DNA of 64,000 nucleotides from Cognatishimia maritima. Lineage in GTDB: Bacteria > Pseudomonadota > Alphaproteobacteria > Rhodobacterales > Rhodobacteraceae. This document shows, piece by piece, positions 50,563 through 57,622 of the stretch (position 1 is its first letter; each line of letters begins with the position of its first letter). The DNA is taken from positions 124,001-188,000 of the forward strand of contig NZ_FQWM01000001.1 of assembly GCF_900129685.1 (NCBI RefSeq). Reading direction: 5' to 3'. The notes below the pieces were generated by a model. That model searched no databases. It worked only from the letters and a program-made list of their open reading frames with translations, and was not told the origin of the DNA. The translations under genes were made by a program, and so were the position numbers.

Positions 50563-51498
50563 TCAGTGTGTGCCTTCGTAGGCTTCTTCGCCTTCGCCCA
50601 GCGTATCGCGATCCAGATATTTGCCTTCGCTTTCAGGGCCTTCTTTCATCTCAAGGTATGAGCGATAGAAGAACGCGATAGCGTGGATAAAGACCAGACC
50701 AGCAAAGGCCACGAGAAGGATCTTGAACAGGAAGTAGGCGGTAAAGCCGTTGGGCGAGAAACCGATGGTTTCAATGTTCCAGCGCAGGGCCCGAGACTTG
50801 GTCAACAGGCGGTCCAGCGTGTCACTTGCCGAAGGTTTCGGCACGATCAAATGGCGCCACATGAAGTACCAGCCATACATCCAGACCATGACGGCAATCG
50901 GCATCATGAAAAGGATGGAGCCGCACATATCGATGATCTTTTTGGTGCGATAGCTGACGGATGCATAAAGCAAGTCAACACGCACATGGCCGCCCTGCAC
51001 AAAGGTGTAGGTGGCACATAGGGTCACGACGAGGGCATTGTAGAATTTCAGTTCTTCGGCATACCAGCTGATGTCAAACTGCAGCGGGACGCCAAACCCA
51101 AAGACAATGTCAGGTCGGGTAAAGATACGCTGCATGAAAACGATGATGATTTGCTGCAGCACCATCAATAGCCCGGCCCATGCAAAGAACCGGCCCAAGG
51201 TGTTGGCAAGCCCCTCAAAGGCGCGCACCACAAACCACAAGACGCTGTTTTTCCACAGCCCGATGGCAGTCACCACCAGGAAAGCCGTGAAAGCAACGAA
51301 GAAGAATTCGACCGAGCCGCCGTAATAAACGAAGCGCATTATCGCTTCTTTATTAGACCAATCCAGCCAGAGCGACGGATTGAAAACGGCGTAGGCGAAA
51401 TTTGAAAAGGCCGAAAGGATGTTTAAGCCAAACCAGGCAACACCCTCCCCCAGAGCAGAGATGATCTGCCCAAAACTGGCCGACCCAGTATCCTGCAT
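50563..51498 (-). CDS. dctQ: TRAP transporter small permease subunit, DctQ
   Basis: The small integral membrane partner of DctM. The 311-residue protein is longer than the usual 160-200 residues, with four or more helices: FNPSLWLDW region, AFTAFLVVTAIGLW, YNALVVTLCATYTFVQGGHVRVDLLYA (the DctQ signature block) and a C-terminal VAFAGLVFIHAIAFFYRSYLEMKEG. The N-terminal and C-terminal extra parts match the oversized DctM next to it, 17 bases away. A hairpin region separates it from dctP. Confidence 0.88.
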   Translation of the reverse strand: MQDTGSASFGQIISALGEGVAWFGLNILSAFSNFAYAVFNPSLWLDWSNKEAIMRFVYYGGSVEFFFVAFTAFLVVTAIGLWKNSVLWFVVRAFEGLANTLGRFFAWAGLLMVLQQIIIVFMQRIFTRPDIVFGFGVPLQFDISWYAEELKFYNALVVTLCATYTFVQGGHVRVDLLYASVSYRTKKIIDMCGSILFMMPIAVMVWMYGWYFMWRHLIVPKPSASDTLDRLLTKSRALRWNIETIGFSPNGFTAYFLFKILLVAFAGLVFIHAIAFFYRSYLEMKEGPESEGKYLDRDTLGEGEEAYEGTH

Positions 51499-51522
51499 AA
51501 TGTCCCCCTAAAAGGTAGATGT

Positions 51523-51553
51523 CGATCCGGCCATTTGGATGCGGGCCGGATCG
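51523..51553. repeat. Inverted repeat between dctP and dctQ
   Basis: CGATCCGGCC (51523-51532) and GGCCGGATCG (51544-51553) are perfect 10-base inverted copies with an 11-base loop. Transcription runs from dctP to dctQ, so this hairpin sits between binding-protein and permease. It lacks a T-run on the sense strand and probably protects or ends the dctP message partially. Confidence 0.65.
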
Positions 51554-51602
51554 AAAGGGGCCCCGAAGTTTTTCTCCGGGACCGCTTGTCTGCGCCCGTG
51601 GC

Positions 51603-52688
51603 TTAACCGCCCAGAACGCGAACGCGCTGCTCGACGTAGTAACCGTCGGATTTGTTGATCCAGCTTGCAGAAGTTGCCAGCGACTCTTCGAAAGAGGTGC
51701 GGACGCGGGCGTAAAGCTCGTCATCCATATACTGGTCTTTGACTTCTGCTGCGGCTTTACCGAAGGCATCCCAAACATCGTCAGAGAACTGCAGAACCTT
51801 CACACCCTGTGCTTGCAGACGTGCCAGAGCCGCACCGTTGTTTGCAAGTGTCTCAGACAGTTGCAGATAGGTGGTCGCCATGGATGCGTAACGCAGGATC
51901 GCTTTGTGCTGGTCAGACAGTTCGTTCCAGACATCAAGGTTCACAGAGGAAGACAATGCAGAGCCCGGCTCGTGGAAGCCCGCTGCGTAGTAGACCTTTG
52001 CAACTTCTTGGAAGCCGGCGCGTTCGTCAGCCATTGGGCCAACCCACTCCAGTCCGTCCAGCGCGCCAGAAGACAGCGCTTGGTAAAGTTCACCACCTGG
52101 AATGTTCTGAACGGATGCGCCCAGTTTACCCAGAACTTCACCACCTTGACCCGGCATACGGAATTTCAGGCCGTTGAAGTCAGCAGCGGATTTGATTTCA
52201 TTGCGGAACCAACCACCGGACTGAGAGCCGGAGTTACCAGCCAGCAGGCCCTTCAGGTTGAAGATTTCACCAAGCTCGTCATGTAACTGCTCACCACCGC
52301 CATGGTAGTACCAGTTGGTGACTTCTTGCGCTGTGCCGCCAAATGGAACGGCGGTAAAGTAGGAATAGGCTGGGTGCTGACCACCGAAATAGTAATCGGC
52401 AGAGTGATACATATCGGCCTGACCAGAGGTCACAGCGTCAAAGACCTCTAGCGCACCGACCAATTCGCCCGGTGCTTTTTTGTCGATGGTCAAAGAGCCA
52501 CCAGACATTTCACCAACCATTTGTGCCATATAGCTTGCTGCGTCATCCAGCACCGCGAAACCGCGCGGCCATGATGTCACCATGGTCAACGTGCGATTGC
52601 CTTGCGCATACGCCGGTGCCGCCAAGGTTGTGGCTGCTGCAGCGGTGCCGCCAAGTGCAGATGTTTTTAGAAATGAGCGACGATCCAT
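51603..52688 (-). CDS. dctP: TRAP transporter substrate-binding protein, DctP
   Basis: Periplasmic ligand-binding subunit. The 361-residue precursor begins with a twin-arginine signal, MDRRSFLKTSALGGTAAAAT, with cleavage near PAYAQ. Mature motifs include MVTSWPRGF, ADMYHSADYYFGGQHPAYSYF, GLKFRMPGQGGEVLGKLGA and LDGLEWVGPMADERAGF, closest in pattern to TakP-type proteins that bind pyruvate or other 2-oxo acids. Start 52688 has GGAGGAAC before it. It is divergent from a Cache histidine kinase and leads dctP-dctQ-dctM. The exact ligand is unproven. Confidence 0.88.
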   Translation of the reverse strand: MDRRSFLKTSALGGTAAAATTLAAPAYAQGNRTLTMVTSWPRGFAVLDDAASYMAQMVGEMSGGSLTIDKKAPGELVGALEVFDAVTSGQADMYHSADYYFGGQHPAYSYFTAVPFGGTAQEVTNWYYHGGGEQLHDELGEIFNLKGLLAGNSGSQSGGWFRNEIKSAADFNGLKFRMPGQGGEVLGKLGASVQNIPGGELYQALSSGALDGLEWVGPMADERAGFQEVAKVYYAAGFHEPGSALSSSVNLDVWNELSDQHKAILRYASMATTYLQLSETLANNGAALARLQAQGVKVLQFSDDVWDAFGKAAAEVKDQYMDDELYARVRTSFEESLATSASWINKSDGYYVEQRVRVLGG

Positions 52689-52819
52689 TAAGGTTCCTCC
52701 CAAATAAGATTGCGAATCTGTCCCATACCAGACGGACTCGCGGACCGTTTAAAGTGTGTTGACCGTAACCCTGCCCCCAATTTCTTGAAATACCGACAAC
52801 TACGTAGAGAGGTCAGGAT

Positions 52820-52899: not shown

Positions 52900-54363
52900 A
52901 TGATTCGAGGCAAAGAGGTTCTATTCGATTCGAATATGACGGCAGTTTTGAAAACTCTGCGGCTGTCCTACGGGCAAAAGCTGTTTTTGCTCGCCACCTT
53001 GCCTTTGATCCTGGCGGTGGCAGCGATTTCTGTGCTTGTTGCCAACCAATCGCGCCAACTCGCGGAAAAGGAGATCAACGCGCTTGAGATGCAGTTGATC
53101 GAAGCGAAAAAAGCCGAGCTGAAGAACTATGTGACTCAGGCGCGGAACGGCTTCTATTTTATATACGGCAATGCCGCCCCCAATGACGAAGACGCCAAAC
53201 AGCAGGTGAAACAAATCCTTGCCGCTATGATCTATGGCGATGAAGGTTTCTTTTTTGTCTATGACTACGACGGTGTGAACCTTGTTTCGCCGCGACAGAC
53301 GGACCTGATCAATGAAAACCTCACTGATCTAAGGGATTCGCAGGGCAATCCAGTAGTCCAAGCCTTTATTGAAACCGCACGCGATGGTGCCGGGTATGTC
53401 GAACATCTGTGGCCAAAGCCCTCAAGCGGTGAAGAGGCAGAGATGATCTCTTATGTGACCAGCTTCCCGAGTTGGCGGTGGGCGGTGGGAACCGGTGTCT
53501 TTATTGACGATATCCTTGGCTCCGTCGCTGCTGCGCGAGCAGAAGTCGAAGCACGGGTTCAACGCACATTTGTCTATATCAGCGGCATCACACTTAGCGC
53601 GGTGCTTCTGGTGTTTTGTTCCGGTCTGATGATCAATATTCGCGAACGTCGCCTTGCGGATGTCAAACTCAAGGAACTGACACAGCGCGTGTTTGATGCC
53701 CAAGAAGAAGAGCGCGGTCGCGTCGCAAGAGAATTGCACGACGGTATTTCACAAATCCTTGTTGGGGTGCGTTATGCTTTGGATACGGCGCGCCGCCGGG
53801 TCAAGGTGGGCGACGAACGCGCCGAAGACACGTTGGAGCGCGGGATGGAGCACCTTAACACTGCGATCCATGAGGTGCGCCGCATTTCGCGCGACCTGCG
53901 CCCGGGTGTTCTGGATGACCTGGGCCTTGGCCCTGCTCTGCGCGCCCTAACGGATGAATTCCGCGAACGCACCGGGATTGAGACAGAGTTTGAAACAGTT
54001 GTCTTCCGCAATCGTTTGAACCCCGATGCCAAGTTCTCGCTTTACCGCATTGCGCAGGAGGCCCTGACCAATATTGAGCGCCACGCCAATGCCACCAAGG
54101 TGACGATCGATCTGCGCGGACACAAACGCGGGGCAACGATGCGGATCAGTGACAATGGATCAGGTTTTGTCCAAGGCACTTCGCGGCATGACACGGTGGG
54201 CGGTTTGGGACTGCGCAATATGCAAGAGCGTGTCGAACAGCTAAACGGAACGCTGCGTGTTTTTTCCAGCAAAGGCGGCACCGTGATCGTCGCAGAACTT
54301 CCCCTGAGCAACCTCTTGTCCCCCGGTGAGGACGGAGAGCCAGCACGAGAGGCAAACGCATGA
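52900..54363 (+). CDS. Sensor histidine kinase with Cache domain (HisKA_3)
   Basis: A 487-residue membrane kinase. Helix 1 is about residues 27-49, an extracytoplasmic single Cache domain follows (GFFFVYDYDGVNLVSPRQTD and FPSWRWAVGTGVFIDDI, about residues 120-210), then a second helix (about 225-247). The HisKA_3 block EERGRVARELHDGISQILVG places the phospho-His at 280, and the ATPase domain has ALTNIERHA and DNGSGF. Single Cache domains of this type often bind small carboxylates, matching the divergent TRAP operon. ATGs at 52900 and 52936 are both possible starts, with weak ribosome-binding sites. The response regulator overlaps by 4 bases. Confidence 0.9.
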   Translation: MIRGKEVLFDSNMTAVLKTLRLSYGQKLFLLATLPLILAVAAISVLVANQSRQLAEKEINALEMQLIEAKKAELKNYVTQARNGFYFIYGNAAPNDEDAKQQVKQILAAMIYGDEGFFFVYDYDGVNLVSPRQTDLINENLTDLRDSQGNPVVQAFIETARDGAGYVEHLWPKPSSGEEAEMISYVTSFPSWRWAVGTGVFIDDILGSVAAARAEVEARVQRTFVYISGITLSAVLLVFCSGLMINIRERRLADVKLKELTQRVFDAQEEERGRVARELHDGISQILVGVRYALDTARRRVKVGDERAEDTLERGMEHLNTAIHEVRRISRDLRPGVLDDLGLGPALRALTDEFRERTGIETEFETVVFRNRLNPDAKFSLYRIAQEALTNIERHANATKVTIDLRGHKRGATMRISDNGSGFVQGTSRHDTVGGLGLRNMQERVEQLNGTLRVFSSKGGTVIVAELPLSNLLSPGEDGEPAREANA

Positions 54364-55004
54364 GCGAGCAAATTTCAGTTGTGATCGTGGATGACCACCC
54401 GATGGTGGCCGAAGGCATTCAATCGATCCTTGAAAGCTATGACGACATCGAGGTCCGCGCGACACTGACCAATGGGGCCGAAGCGGTGGCTTATCTCAAG
54501 GGGAATGACGTCGATGTTGTCCTGATGGACCTGAATATGCCGAATATTGGCGGGCTGACCGCGACCGAAATGGTGTTGGAAAGCAAACCCGACATGCGCA
54601 TTCTGATCCTATCGATGCATGATAGCCCGGAATATATCTCAACCGCACTCAGCCATGGGGCTCGGGGCTATGTGCTGAAAGATGTCCCCACCGAAGAAAT
54701 CAAAACCGCCATCGACACCGTCATGCGCGGTGAACGTTACCTTTGCACTGGCGCGGAAGGATCGCTGGAACCCGAAGGCGATGACGAACGCGAAGCGTTA
54801 ACAAGCCGAGAGCAAACGGTGCTGCTGCAACTGGCGCAGGGCAAGTCCAACAAAGAGGTGGCCAATGCGCTGAATATCTCTGTGCGGACAGTGGAAACGC
54901 ACCGCAAAAATATTAAGCGAAAGCTGGGCATCAGTTCAACTGCCGGGCTGACGCGCTACGCGATTGAACACGGCGTTTTGCAGGGCACGGGTGTGCAACT
55001 CTGA
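54360..55004 (+). CDS. Response regulator, LuxR/NarL family
   Basis: A 214-residue DNA-binding response regulator and partner of the preceding kinase. The receiver domain has VVIVDDHPMVAEG, phospho-acceptor Asp57 in VVLMDLNMP, and Lys in GYVLKDVPTEE. The output domain is LTSREQTVLLQLAQGKSNKEVA, with RTVETHRKNIKRKLG as the recognition helix. The ATG overlaps the kinase stop as ATGA. Its targets are probably the TRAP operon on the other side of the kinase gene, which carries a palindrome in its promoter region. Confidence 0.93.
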   Translation: MSEQISVVIVDDHPMVAEGIQSILESYDDIEVRATLTNGAEAVAYLKGNDVDVVLMDLNMPNIGGLTATEMVLESKPDMRILILSMHDSPEYISTALSHGARGYVLKDVPTEEIKTAIDTVMRGERYLCTGAEGSLEPEGDDEREALTSREQTVLLQLAQGKSNKEVANALNISVRTVETHRKNIKRKLGISSTAGLTRYAIEHGVLQGTGVQL

Positions 55005-55107: not shown

Positions 55108-55136
55108 TTGACGCCCCTTTTTAGGACTCATAATGT
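55108..55136 (+). promoter_or_regulatory. Putative ilvB leader promoter
   Basis: TTGACG (55108-55113) is followed by CATAAT after 15 bases or TAATGT after 17. Transcription would start near 55141, so the leader peptide begins about 25 bases into the RNA. Confidence 0.4.
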
Positions 55137-55164
55137 CCGCTGCAACGCAAAAAGGACCCGACGC

Positions 55165-55212
55165 ATGTCAGAGCTAGTCGTCATCGTAGGAAATAGGCGC
55201 ATGGGCCGGTAA
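55165..55212 (+). CDS. ilvL: ilvB leader peptide
   Basis: A 15-codon reading frame, MSELVVIVGNRRMGR, preceded by AAGGA 9 bases upstream and ending in TAA. Residues 4-8 are Leu-Val-Val-Ile-Val, five consecutive branched-chain codons, the hallmark of attenuator leader peptides. Ribosome stalling on them would leave bases 55196-55205 free. It is immediately followed by alternative hairpins before ilvB. The symbol ilvL is used by analogy with enterobacteria. Confidence 0.85.
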   Translation: MSELVVIVGNRRMGR

Positions 55213-55262
55213 CGGTTTTCCAGAATGGACCCCATGCGCCCCCGAAAATCGGGGGCTTTTTT
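55196..55262 (+). terminator. ilvB attenuator: antiterminator and terminator hairpins
   Basis: GGCGCATGGG (55196-55205), at the end of the leader-peptide frame, is perfectly complementary to CCCATGCGCC (55231-55240). The terminator GCCCCCGA/TCGGGGGC (55238-55245 and 55249-55256) with a TTTTTT run overlaps the second arm, so the structures exclude each other. When charged branched-chain tRNAs are plentiful, a ribosome reaching the TAA covers the first arm and the terminator forms; stalling at the Leu/Val/Ile codons favours the antiterminator. Confidence 0.85.
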
Positions 55263-55293
55263 GTCGCAAAAGACGTTGCAAGCGGAGAGTGAA

Positions 55294-57048
55294 ATGACAC
55301 GCAACATGACCGGAGCGAAAATGGTCGTTCAAGCCCTGAAAGATCAGGGCGTGGACACAGTCTTTGGCTATCCCGGCGGTGCCGTGCTGCCGATCTACGA
55401 TGAGATTTTCCAGCAGAATGACATCCGGCACATTCTGGTGCGCCACGAACAAGGTGCTGTGCACGCCGCCGAAGGATACGCACGTTCCACCGGCAAAGTT
55501 GGTGTTGCGCTGGTGACGTCCGGCCCAGGTGCCACCAACGCAGTCACCGGTTTGACCGACGCTTTGCTGGATTCGATCCCAATTGTTGTCATTTCAGGTC
55601 AGGTTCCAACCTTTATGATCGGCTCTGACGCCTTTCAAGAGGCCGACACGGTGGGCATCACCCGCCCCTGTACCAAACACAATTGGCTGGCCAAAGACAC
55701 CGCAAAGCTGTCAGAGACGCTGCATCAGGCATTCCATGTTGCGCGCTCTGGTCGTCCGGGTCCGGTGCTGGTGGATATCCCAAAAGACACGCAGTTTGCC
55801 TCTGCTGGCTACACCGAACCCCGCGCCGCGCGGGTCGATCATTACCAGCCGCAGCTTAAGGGTGACATTACAGAAATCACCGAACTTGTTGAATTGATGG
55901 AAAAAGCCAAGCGTCCGGTTTTCTATACCGGCGGTGGCGTCATCAATTCTGGCACTGCGGCAAGCCAGCTGCTGCGCGAACTGGTCGAAAGCACAGATTT
56001 CCCGATCACCTCAACCTTGATGGGTCTGGGCGCCTACCCTGCGTCTGGCAAAAACTGGCTGGGGATGCTGGGGATGCACGGGCTTTATGAGGCCAATATG
56101 GCGATGCATGACTGCGATCTGATGATCAACGTCGGCGCGCGCTTTGATGACCGGATTACGGGCCTGATCTCTGCCTTCTCGCCCAAGTCGAAGAAGGCGC
56201 ATATCGACATTGATCCAAGTTCGATCAACAAGGTGATCCGCGTCGATGTGCCCATCGTTGGTGACGTGGCTCATGTGCTTGAAGATCTACTAAAGGTCTG
56301 GAAAGCACGCGGTCGCAAAACTAACAAAGAAGCACTGCAGAAATGGCATGCGCAAATTGCCGAGTGGAAAACCGTCCGCTGCCTCGATTTTACGCAAGAA
56401 GGGCCCACTATCAAACCGCAATACGCGCTTGAACGGCTTGAGGCTCTGACCAAAGACAAAGATCGCTATATCACCACCGAAGTGGGCCAACACCAAATGT
56501 GGGCGGCGCAATACCTTGGCTTTGAAGACCCGAACCGCTTTATGACCTCAGGCGGTCTGGGCACCATGGGCTATGGTTTCCCTGCTTCTATCGGAGTGCA
56601 GATGGCGCATCCGGATGGCCTTGTGATCAACGTGGCGGGCGAAGCCTCGTGGTTGATGAACATGCAGGAAATGGGCACCGCAGTGCAATTCCGCCTTCCT
56701 GTAAAGCAGTTCATCCTGAACAACGAGCGTCTGGGCATGGTGCGCCAGTGGCAGGAACTTCTGCATGGCGAACGCTATTCCCACAGCTGGTCCGAGGCCC
56801 TGCCCGACTTCGTGAAACTCGCCGAGGCCTTTGGTGCCAAAGGCATTCTTTGCTCAGACCCGAAAGATCTGGACGATGCGATCATGGAAATGATCAATCA
56901 CGATGGGCCGGTGATTTTTGATTGCTTGGTTGAGAAACACGAAAACTGCTTCCCGATGATCCCGTCGGGCAAACCGCACAATGAAATGCTTCTGGGCGAA
57001 GCCTCCACCCAAGGTGCCATCGAAGCTGGCGGCGCGGTACTGGTGTAA
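55294..57048 (+). CDS. ilvB: Acetolactate synthase large subunit
   Basis: Thiamine diphosphate-dependent synthesis of acetolactate from pyruvate, first common step of branched-chain amino acid synthesis. The 584-residue protein has the catalytic Glu in HEQGAVHAAEGYARSTG, the FAD-region GARFDDRITG and the ThDP-binding segment. There the usual GDGS is GEAS (VAGEASWLMNMQEM), a form shared by alphaproteobacterial homologues, so not a defect. ATG 55294 is preferred over an in-frame ATG at 55225 inside the attenuator. ilvH follows 10 bases later. Confidence 0.97.
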   Translation: MTRNMTGAKMVVQALKDQGVDTVFGYPGGAVLPIYDEIFQQNDIRHILVRHEQGAVHAAEGYARSTGKVGVALVTSGPGATNAVTGLTDALLDSIPIVVISGQVPTFMIGSDAFQEADTVGITRPCTKHNWLAKDTAKLSETLHQAFHVARSGRPGPVLVDIPKDTQFASAGYTEPRAARVDHYQPQLKGDITEITELVELMEKAKRPVFYTGGGVINSGTAASQLLRELVESTDFPITSTLMGLGAYPASGKNWLGMLGMHGLYEANMAMHDCDLMINVGARFDDRITGLISAFSPKSKKAHIDIDPSSINKVIRVDVPIVGDVAHVLEDLLKVWKARGRKTNKEALQKWHAQIAEWKTVRCLDFTQEGPTIKPQYALERLEALTKDKDRYITTEVGQHQMWAAQYLGFEDPNRFMTSGGLGTMGYGFPASIGVQMAHPDGLVINVAGEASWLMNMQEMGTAVQFRLPVKQFILNNERLGMVRQWQELLHGERYSHSWSEALPDFVKLAEAFGAKGILCSDPKDLDDAIMEMINHDGPVIFDCLVEKHENCFPMIPSGKPHNEMLLGEASTQGAIEAGGAVLV

Positions 57049-57058
57049 GGAAAAGATC

Positions 57059-57622
57059 ATGGCTGCTTTGAAAATCAAAAAGGGCTCCACGAGTCATTCC
57101 GCCTATAACCTGCGCCCGGATTTCTCCGACGTGGAAGAACGACATACGCTTGCGGTGGTTGTGGACAACGAACCGGGCGTTCTGGCGCGCGTCGTTGGGC
57201 TGTTCTCTGGTCGTGGCTACAACATCGAAAGCCTGACCGTGGCTGAGGTCGATCACACTGGTCACCAGTCCCGTATCACCATTGTCACCACAGGCACGCC
57301 GCAGGTGATTGAGCAGATCAAAGCGCAGTTGGGCCGCATTGTGCCGGTGCATGATGTGCATGACCTGACAGTCGAAGGCCCGTCGGTCGAACGCGAGTTG
57401 GGCCTATTCAAGGTTGCGGGCGAAGGCGAAAAGCGCGTCGAAGCGATGCGCATGGCAGAGATTTTCCGAGCCAATGTTGTGGACACCACGCTCGATAGTT
57501 TTGTGTTTGAAATCACCGGCGCGCCAGAAAAGATCGACGCATTCGCGGAACTGATGCGCCCACTGGGCCTGCAAGAGGTGGCGCGCACCGGCGTTGCGGC
57601 GTTGTCTCGCGGGAAACTTTAA
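57059..57622 (+). CDS. ilvH: Acetolactate synthase small (regulatory) subunit
   Basis: Regulatory subunit conferring valine feedback inhibition. The 187-residue protein has an N-terminal ACT domain (TLAVVVDNEPGVLARVVGLFSGRGYNIESL across about residues 31-60, given here as TLAVVVDNEPGVLARV and VGLFSGRGYNIESL) and the C-terminal domain with FRANVVDTTLDSFVFEITG. Start 57059 follows AAGGAAAAG. The gene name ilvN is used as an alternative. It closes the ilvB-ilvH operon with a terminator. Confidence 0.96.
   Translation: MAALKIKKGSTSHSAYNLRPDFSDVEERHTLAVVVDNEPGVLARVVGLFSGRGYNIESLTVAEVDHTGHQSRITIVTTGTPQVIEQIKAQLGRIVPVHDVHDLTVEGPSVERELGLFKVAGEGEKRVEAMRMAEIFRANVVDTTLDSFVFEITGAPEKIDAFAELMRPLGLQEVARTGVAALSRGKL

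Follow-up and report, generated by a model that had tools for sequence, protein, structure and literature searches.

A probable leader-peptide attenuator upstream of ilvB-ilvH in Cognatishimia maritima, and related elements preceding a Bcr/CflA-type transporter

Architecture of the region upstream of ilvB-ilvH

The window analysed here comprises 64,000 nucleotides of Cognatishimia maritima contig NZ_FQWM01000001.1 (positions 124,001 to 188,000). Its plus strand encodes the large and the small subunit of acetolactate synthase, ilvB (55294–57048; NCBIfam NF006581, 1129.6 bits at a cut-off of 974) and ilvH (57059–57622; NCBIfam NF008864, 224 bits at a cut-off of 119). Directly in front of ilvB-ilvH, the 187-base region 55108–55294 of the same strand holds every named part of an attenuator. 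Two promoter-like boxes with 17-base spacing, TTGACG (55108–55113) and TAATGT (55131–55136), are followed by the ribosome-binding site AAGGA (55152–55156, read by eye) and by a leader ORF encoding MSELVVIVGNRRMGR, which extends from the ATG at 55165–55167 to the TAA at 55210–55212. Codons 4 to 8 of the leader (CTA GTC GTC ATC GTA, 55174–55188) specify Leu-Val-Val-Ile-Val and represent the putative control codons.

The final leader codons contain the 5′ arm of helix P0, the candidate antiterminator (GGCGCATGGG, 55196–55205). It pairs exactly with the 3′ arm CCCATGCGCC (55231–55240), and the two arms form the sole exact inverted repeat of at least 9 bp within 55108–55294. Nested inside P0 is a hairpin, P1 (CCG-GTAA-CGG, 55206–55215), whose loop contains the stop codon of the leader, followed by a possible small second hairpin, P2 (55219–55229). 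The intrinsic terminator is composed of GCCCCCGA/TCGGGGGC (55238–55256) and TTTTTT (55257–55262), with a minimum energy of −16.9 kcal/mol. Its first three bases, 55238–55240, are shared with P0. A sequence-only reading of this DNA had described leader, arms, terminator and T-run as an attenuator of ilvB-ilvH; all of its coordinates proved exact to the base on re-reading, including the ribosome-binding site, the 15-codon leader with its codon run and the 10-bp pairing of the P0 arms. P1 did not feature in that reading.

By DNA similarity as well as by covariance model at E 0.01, the element is found once in the source genome (3.28 Mb, 14 contigs). At the gathering score, Rfam gives no match in 55108–55294 and four in the whole window, all of them tRNAs; a known riboswitch or T-box at the element was rejected on this ground. 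Relaxing the threshold brings up four below-cut-off matches at the element, among them Atu_C8 with 15.9 bits and an E-value of 2.1. Upstream of the region lies a two-component pair (52900–55004) with MctS/MctR as best match, both under the curated cut-off, and the adjoining minus-strand genes (50563–52703) resemble, by eye, parts of a TRAP transporter.

Conservation of the leader, its codon run and the helices

All 100 genomes examined from the family contain IlvB, one of them in two copies, and among the 101 ilvB upstream regions read from these genomes leader and terminator were recognised in 95. In the genome with two copies (G022), each copy (L005 and L103) has a leader and a terminator of its own. 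Together with L104 from the same family and L114 from another family, the 95 regions form a set of 97 loci, which includes the duplicates L001, L032 and L033. Left out were L077, L085, L095, L101 and L185, which show no recognisable leader, and L068, in which the chosen ORF stops early, though a terminator and a possible P0 are visible. At L085 (genome G021, genus g22) neither leader nor terminator precedes ilvB.

Stem and T-run of the terminator are present in all 97 loci. The leader is 15 codons long in 70 of them, with the consensus M-x-x-L-V-V-I-V-G-x-x-R-M-G-R. The leader of L083 is cut to 10 codons by an in-frame TAG, which lies ahead of an otherwise intact P0 arm. The run of branched-chain amino acid codons is likewise conserved, as the sequence-only reading had suggested should be looked for: the best five-codon stretch contains at least four Leu, Ile or Val codons in 87 of the 97 leaders, and all three amino acids occur in 82, counts that are biased upwards by a leader choice favouring Leu/Ile/Val and RMG. 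Counting against an attenuator are the ten leaders with three or fewer such codons in any five (three in 8, two in 2). The use of rare codons is independent of how the leaders were chosen. Among 245 leader Val codons 52% are GTA, versus 6% of 1482 in ilvB, and among 145 leader Leu codons 30% are CTA, versus 2% of 1612, with the ilvB segments of 30 loci as reference. This enrichment is in keeping with a leader in which the rate of decoding is important. The promoter-like boxes are marked by the conservation line and by the enrichment of TTGAC, which 94 of the 97 loci have 30–75 nt upstream of the leader start, compared with 8 of 421 45-nt windows of background sequence; the promoter-to-leader region is otherwise poorly conserved.

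In alignment A1, P0 pairs in 89.6% of cells with both-side changes in 8 of 10 pairs; for the six pairs of the terminator, the values are 94.8% of cells and 5 of 6 pairs. The whole-structure measures were reached by none of 500 shuffles, which leave the relatedness among the loci in place. Of 96 aligned relatives, 50 form the outermost of the shared pairs, 55196–55240. Both leader frame and alternative pairing are kept among the relatives, the opposite of the outcome that the sequence-only reading had named as speaking against it, and changes on both sides of pairs are found in P0 as well as in the terminator, where it had proposed to look for covariation. P2 is weak (42.1% of cells paired) and was not retained as a conserved hairpin. 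Some single folds showed an outer helix joining the terminator arm to the Gly codon that follows the codon run. This helix was rejected as well, since it did not rise above shuffles in the 83 loci in which P0 and terminator overlap, nor among the loci without overlap, 6 of 14 of which were usable.

P1 was assessed with the stop codon as the sole anchor. The counts for its three pairs are 82, 73 and 78 of the 97 loci, values reached by 0, 2 and 0 of 1000 shuffles, respectively; in shifted controls single slid pairs reach 0.77–0.82, and all three are high in no slid version. Among 40 loci without the CCG/CGG form, 35 lie above a low score versus 23.7 expected from shuffles. It is therefore mainly the anchored test that argues for P1, which may with moderate confidence be regarded as a conserved hairpin. 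RNAalifold, run on the full alignment A1, returned 3 pairs and recovered neither P0 nor P1, presumably owing to gaps and to the two competing folds. Among the 16 loci lacking the GCGCATGG core, the best P0 was reached by at most 17 of 500 shuffles in 6 and by at least 39 in 10.

The terminator sits 3′ of a response-regulator gene ending at 55004 and could in principle be a plain terminator between this gene and ilvB, preceded by a chance ORF. However, a conserved promoter-like box separates the response-regulator gene from the leader, and leader, codon bias and P0 are all conserved, so that comparison renders this explanation highly improbable. The region is best read, by a wide margin, as a leader-peptide attenuator of ilvBH, with frame, codon run, P0, terminator, spacing and promoter all conserved in the family.

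A scan for the core motif in one genome per species yielded at least 118 stretches; ilvB follows in 79 of the 80 loci read, and the 80th has just 108 bases downstream. The covariance model R1, built from the 97 rows and therefore matching those genomes partly by construction, finds the element at E 0.01 in 268 of the 292 genomes searched within the order, a number that may include a few chance matches, as those between E 1e-4 and 1e-2 can be. Genus g22 accounts for 15 of the 20 misses listed among the 24 genomes without a match, and a loss of the attenuator in this genus is suggested. In the class, R1 matches 22 of 288 genomes. Directly before ilvB of other families, leader and terminator were found in 1 of 80 regions (L114) and later at L383 from the same family as L114. 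This survey covered 80 of the 81 genomes with an ilvB match (G139 was left out) and did not knowingly include Caulobacter; it allowed terminator loops of 3–9 and at least 4 T, the remainder being judged by eye, and two of its regions, L116 and L136, have less than 100 nt upstream.

Proposed mechanism and the overlap of P0 with the terminator

The leader with its codon run, the pairing of P0, the terminator, the promoter-like boxes and the downstream gene are supported by sequence as well as by comparison, P1 moderately so, and the element is very probably a ribosome-mediated transcription attenuator of ilvBH. How the ribosome stalls, in which order the RNA folds, and how the switch turns ON or OFF with the supply of each amino acid is inferred as follows. 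Transcription would begin shortly upstream of the leader. With ample charged Leu-, Val- and Ile-tRNA, the ribosome would get to the stop codon at 55210 and cover both the P0 5′ arm and P1, allowing the terminator to fold and the RNA to end near 55262. Shortage of any one of the three tRNAs would stall the ribosome on codons 4–7, and the RNA from 55196 onwards could then fold into P0, closed over P1, ahead of completion of the terminator. By keeping the bottom bases of the terminator (55238–55240), located by the U-tract, P0 would let RNA polymerase continue into ilvBH. Since inspection of the promoter-to-leader region revealed no conserved upstream helix competing with P0, the operon is predicted to be ON if the leader is not translated.

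According to the sequence-only reading, a ribosome stalled at 55174–55188 leaves the first antiterminator arm uncovered. This would hold for codons 4–7, which leave the arm fully free. At the last Val codon (55186–55188), however, the usual footprint puts a stalled ribosome out to about 55198 and hence into the P0 5′ arm. The nested position of the stop-codon hairpin sets the element apart from the E. coli trp attenuator, in which the hairpin at the stop codon is a competitor of the antiterminator.

The overlap between antiterminator and terminator, likewise part of the sequence-only reading, is present in the window with three bases, and 83 of 97 loci share 1–4 bases, whereas 14 share none. 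Twelve of these 14 were tested by shuffling, and P0 was well above shuffles in four (L006, L056, L094 and L102). Because the P0 assignment exceeds shuffles in just 4 of the 12, the gap in the remaining no-overlap loci may be misjudged. In the window, the energy of the fold with complete P0 and shortened terminator (−32.3 kcal/mol) nearly equals that of the fold with shortened P0 and complete terminator (−33.6 kcal/mol); therefore the switch would have to be kinetic, with P0 forming first and holding the U-tract-adjacent pairs. For loci without overlap, this explanation fails. P0 is accordingly best described as a candidate alternative to the terminator, and exclusion of the terminator by P0 is not fully established.

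The overlap might also be incidental, the attenuation being real and P0 working otherwise than by taking bases from the terminator. An abutting P0 helix could, for instance, hinder the last terminator pairs sterically from closing inside the RNA exit channel. The four no-overlap loci with a P0 above shuffles would agree with this, as would three leaders of the Atu_C8 type described below (L315, L400 and L401), in which the gap between P0 and terminator is 7. We nevertheless consider it unlikely, given that 83 of 97 loci do share bases and that the P0 assignment does not rise above shuffles for most of the 14 loci without overlap.

Attenuation of ilv operons is known in general, as the sequence-only reading stated, and two of the known systems, both accessible through citing papers, come close to the element that we regard as an attenuator of ilvBH. 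In Caulobacter crescentus, the ilvBN attenuator contains tandem Ile/Val codons, and starvation blocks its terminator (Tarleton 1994, as cited in PMC4117421); set beside the window element by this description, it shares the alphaproteobacterial host, the ilvB operon, the leader codons and the terminator. An ilvB leader peptide of alphaproteobacteria, thus of the same class, was predicted earlier (Vitreschak 2004, as cited in PMC1273637), and this prediction, as far as the citing paper conveys it, may already cover the present lineage. The same order, Rhodobacterales, also has the motif uORFC-8-2, a leader-peptide attenuator before cysS, which differs by its cysteine codons and its downstream gene (PMC8632094). 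The E. coli trp and leu and the C. glutamicum ilvBNC attenuators have leader codons, a stop codon near a hairpin and a terminator in common.

Related elements upstream of a transporter and the Rfam family Atu_C8

Although R1 was built from ilvB elements, all 15 of its strong matches away from ilvB (L308–L315, L376–L381 and L426) precede a Bcr/CflA-type MFS transporter and display the same architecture. Outside the own family, the class search at E ≤1e-4 gave eight matches (L308–L315), each in front of an MFS transporter. Within the order, 34 genomes have at least two matches; rescanning 24 of them gave seven second matches with E <4e-6, all before the same transporter family. Seven weaker second matches that were read (E 1e-4 to 1e-2) lie neither at ilvB nor at the transporter, and eleven class-wide matches (E 6.5e-4 to 9.2e-3) were judged by eye to be chance, all but L322 having been viewed.

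The three transporters tested all pass the TIGR00710 Bcr/CflA cut-off. Homologues of the transporter, 21 in total, are found in 20 of 288 genomes, and the R1 element lies upstream of 8, all of which fall among the 13 with at least 54% identity to the query. By R1, no element was detected upstream of the other 5 of these 13, nor of the 8 less similar homologues, including the one in the own genome (44%). The transporter leaders are valine-rich, as in MHILIVVVGERRLDR and MKQIVIVVGRMRMGR, and Val, with 68 occurrences in 20 leaders, is their most frequent residue; some, such as MYLSNTAGVGARRPGR, are poor in Leu, Ile and Val. In alignment A2, which combines the window element with 20 transporter elements, 84.6% of the P0 and P1 cells are paired, with mid-helix mismatches in several members, and of five measures the percentage paired alone was reached by no shuffle. 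Control of the transporter by amino acids would follow by inference.

One of the transporter elements, L315, matches the Rfam family Atu_C8 (RF02502), a Rhizobiales sRNA family, with 98.8 bits at a gathering score of 50, and in the family of L315 this score is exceeded in 6 of 36 genomes. A member of the same transporter family lies downstream in all six Atu_C8 loci read (L382 and L400–L404). The ilvB elements fall short of the gathering score (15.9 bits for the one in the window, up to 32.2 elsewhere), as do the other transporter elements tested, and for this reason neither group is classed as Atu_C8. The Atu_C8 model resembles the ilvB element in its closing helix, a UAA hairpin, a second small hairpin and a downstream terminator; the second small hairpin has a weak counterpart in the ilvB set. 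The two differ in that the Atu_C8 loci precede a transporter, whereas the window element precedes ilvB. In the Atu_C8-type leaders TTGAC is located 36 nt upstream of the ATG, a spacing that would suit a leaderless ORF. At L006, L114 and L400–L404, TTGAC lies just about 36–40 nt upstream of the leader ATG, and these leader ORFs may be leaderless. In the open-licence literature, as represented by listings and passages, nothing was found that names Atu_C8 an attenuator or describes the transporter leader reported here.

The cataloguing of the related Atu_C8 family as sRNA raises the question of whether the terminated leader also acts in trans, as an sRNA or via its peptide, in the manner of Sinorhizobium trpL; rnTrpL is described as an attenuator sRNA of dual function whose peptide has 14 aa (PMC10117765). 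In L006, L056, L094 and L102, however, the end of the peptide is altered and the RNA pairing is kept, which disfavours a conserved role of the peptide, and we regard an additional function in trans as unlikely.

For attenuation in cis, an extension to both targets has about an even chance of being correct: the elements would form one alphaproteobacterial attenuator class, placed before ilvB in Rhodobacterales and, in several other families as well as in some Rhodobacterales, before a Bcr/CflA-type efflux transporter. Atu_C8 would then be a terminated transporter leader, and a shortage of charged Val-, Ile- or Leu-tRNA would switch the transporter on. If true, the triggers of the transporter would be starvation or natural inhibitors of the Val, Ile and Leu tRNA synthetases.

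The ilvB attenuator itself belongs to a known kind, of which it is a variant by its nested stop-codon hairpin, its minimal or absent overlap and its shared use with a transporter, and it enlarges this type of control by a large and well-defined set. With an overlap between P0 and terminator of several, few or no bases, the loci provide a natural series in which the need for overlap in antitermination becomes testable. More interesting is its link to Atu_C8 and to an efflux-type transporter, since this suggests how an RNA family listed solely as sRNA could work and predicts that the transporter responds to the supply of branched-chain amino acids.
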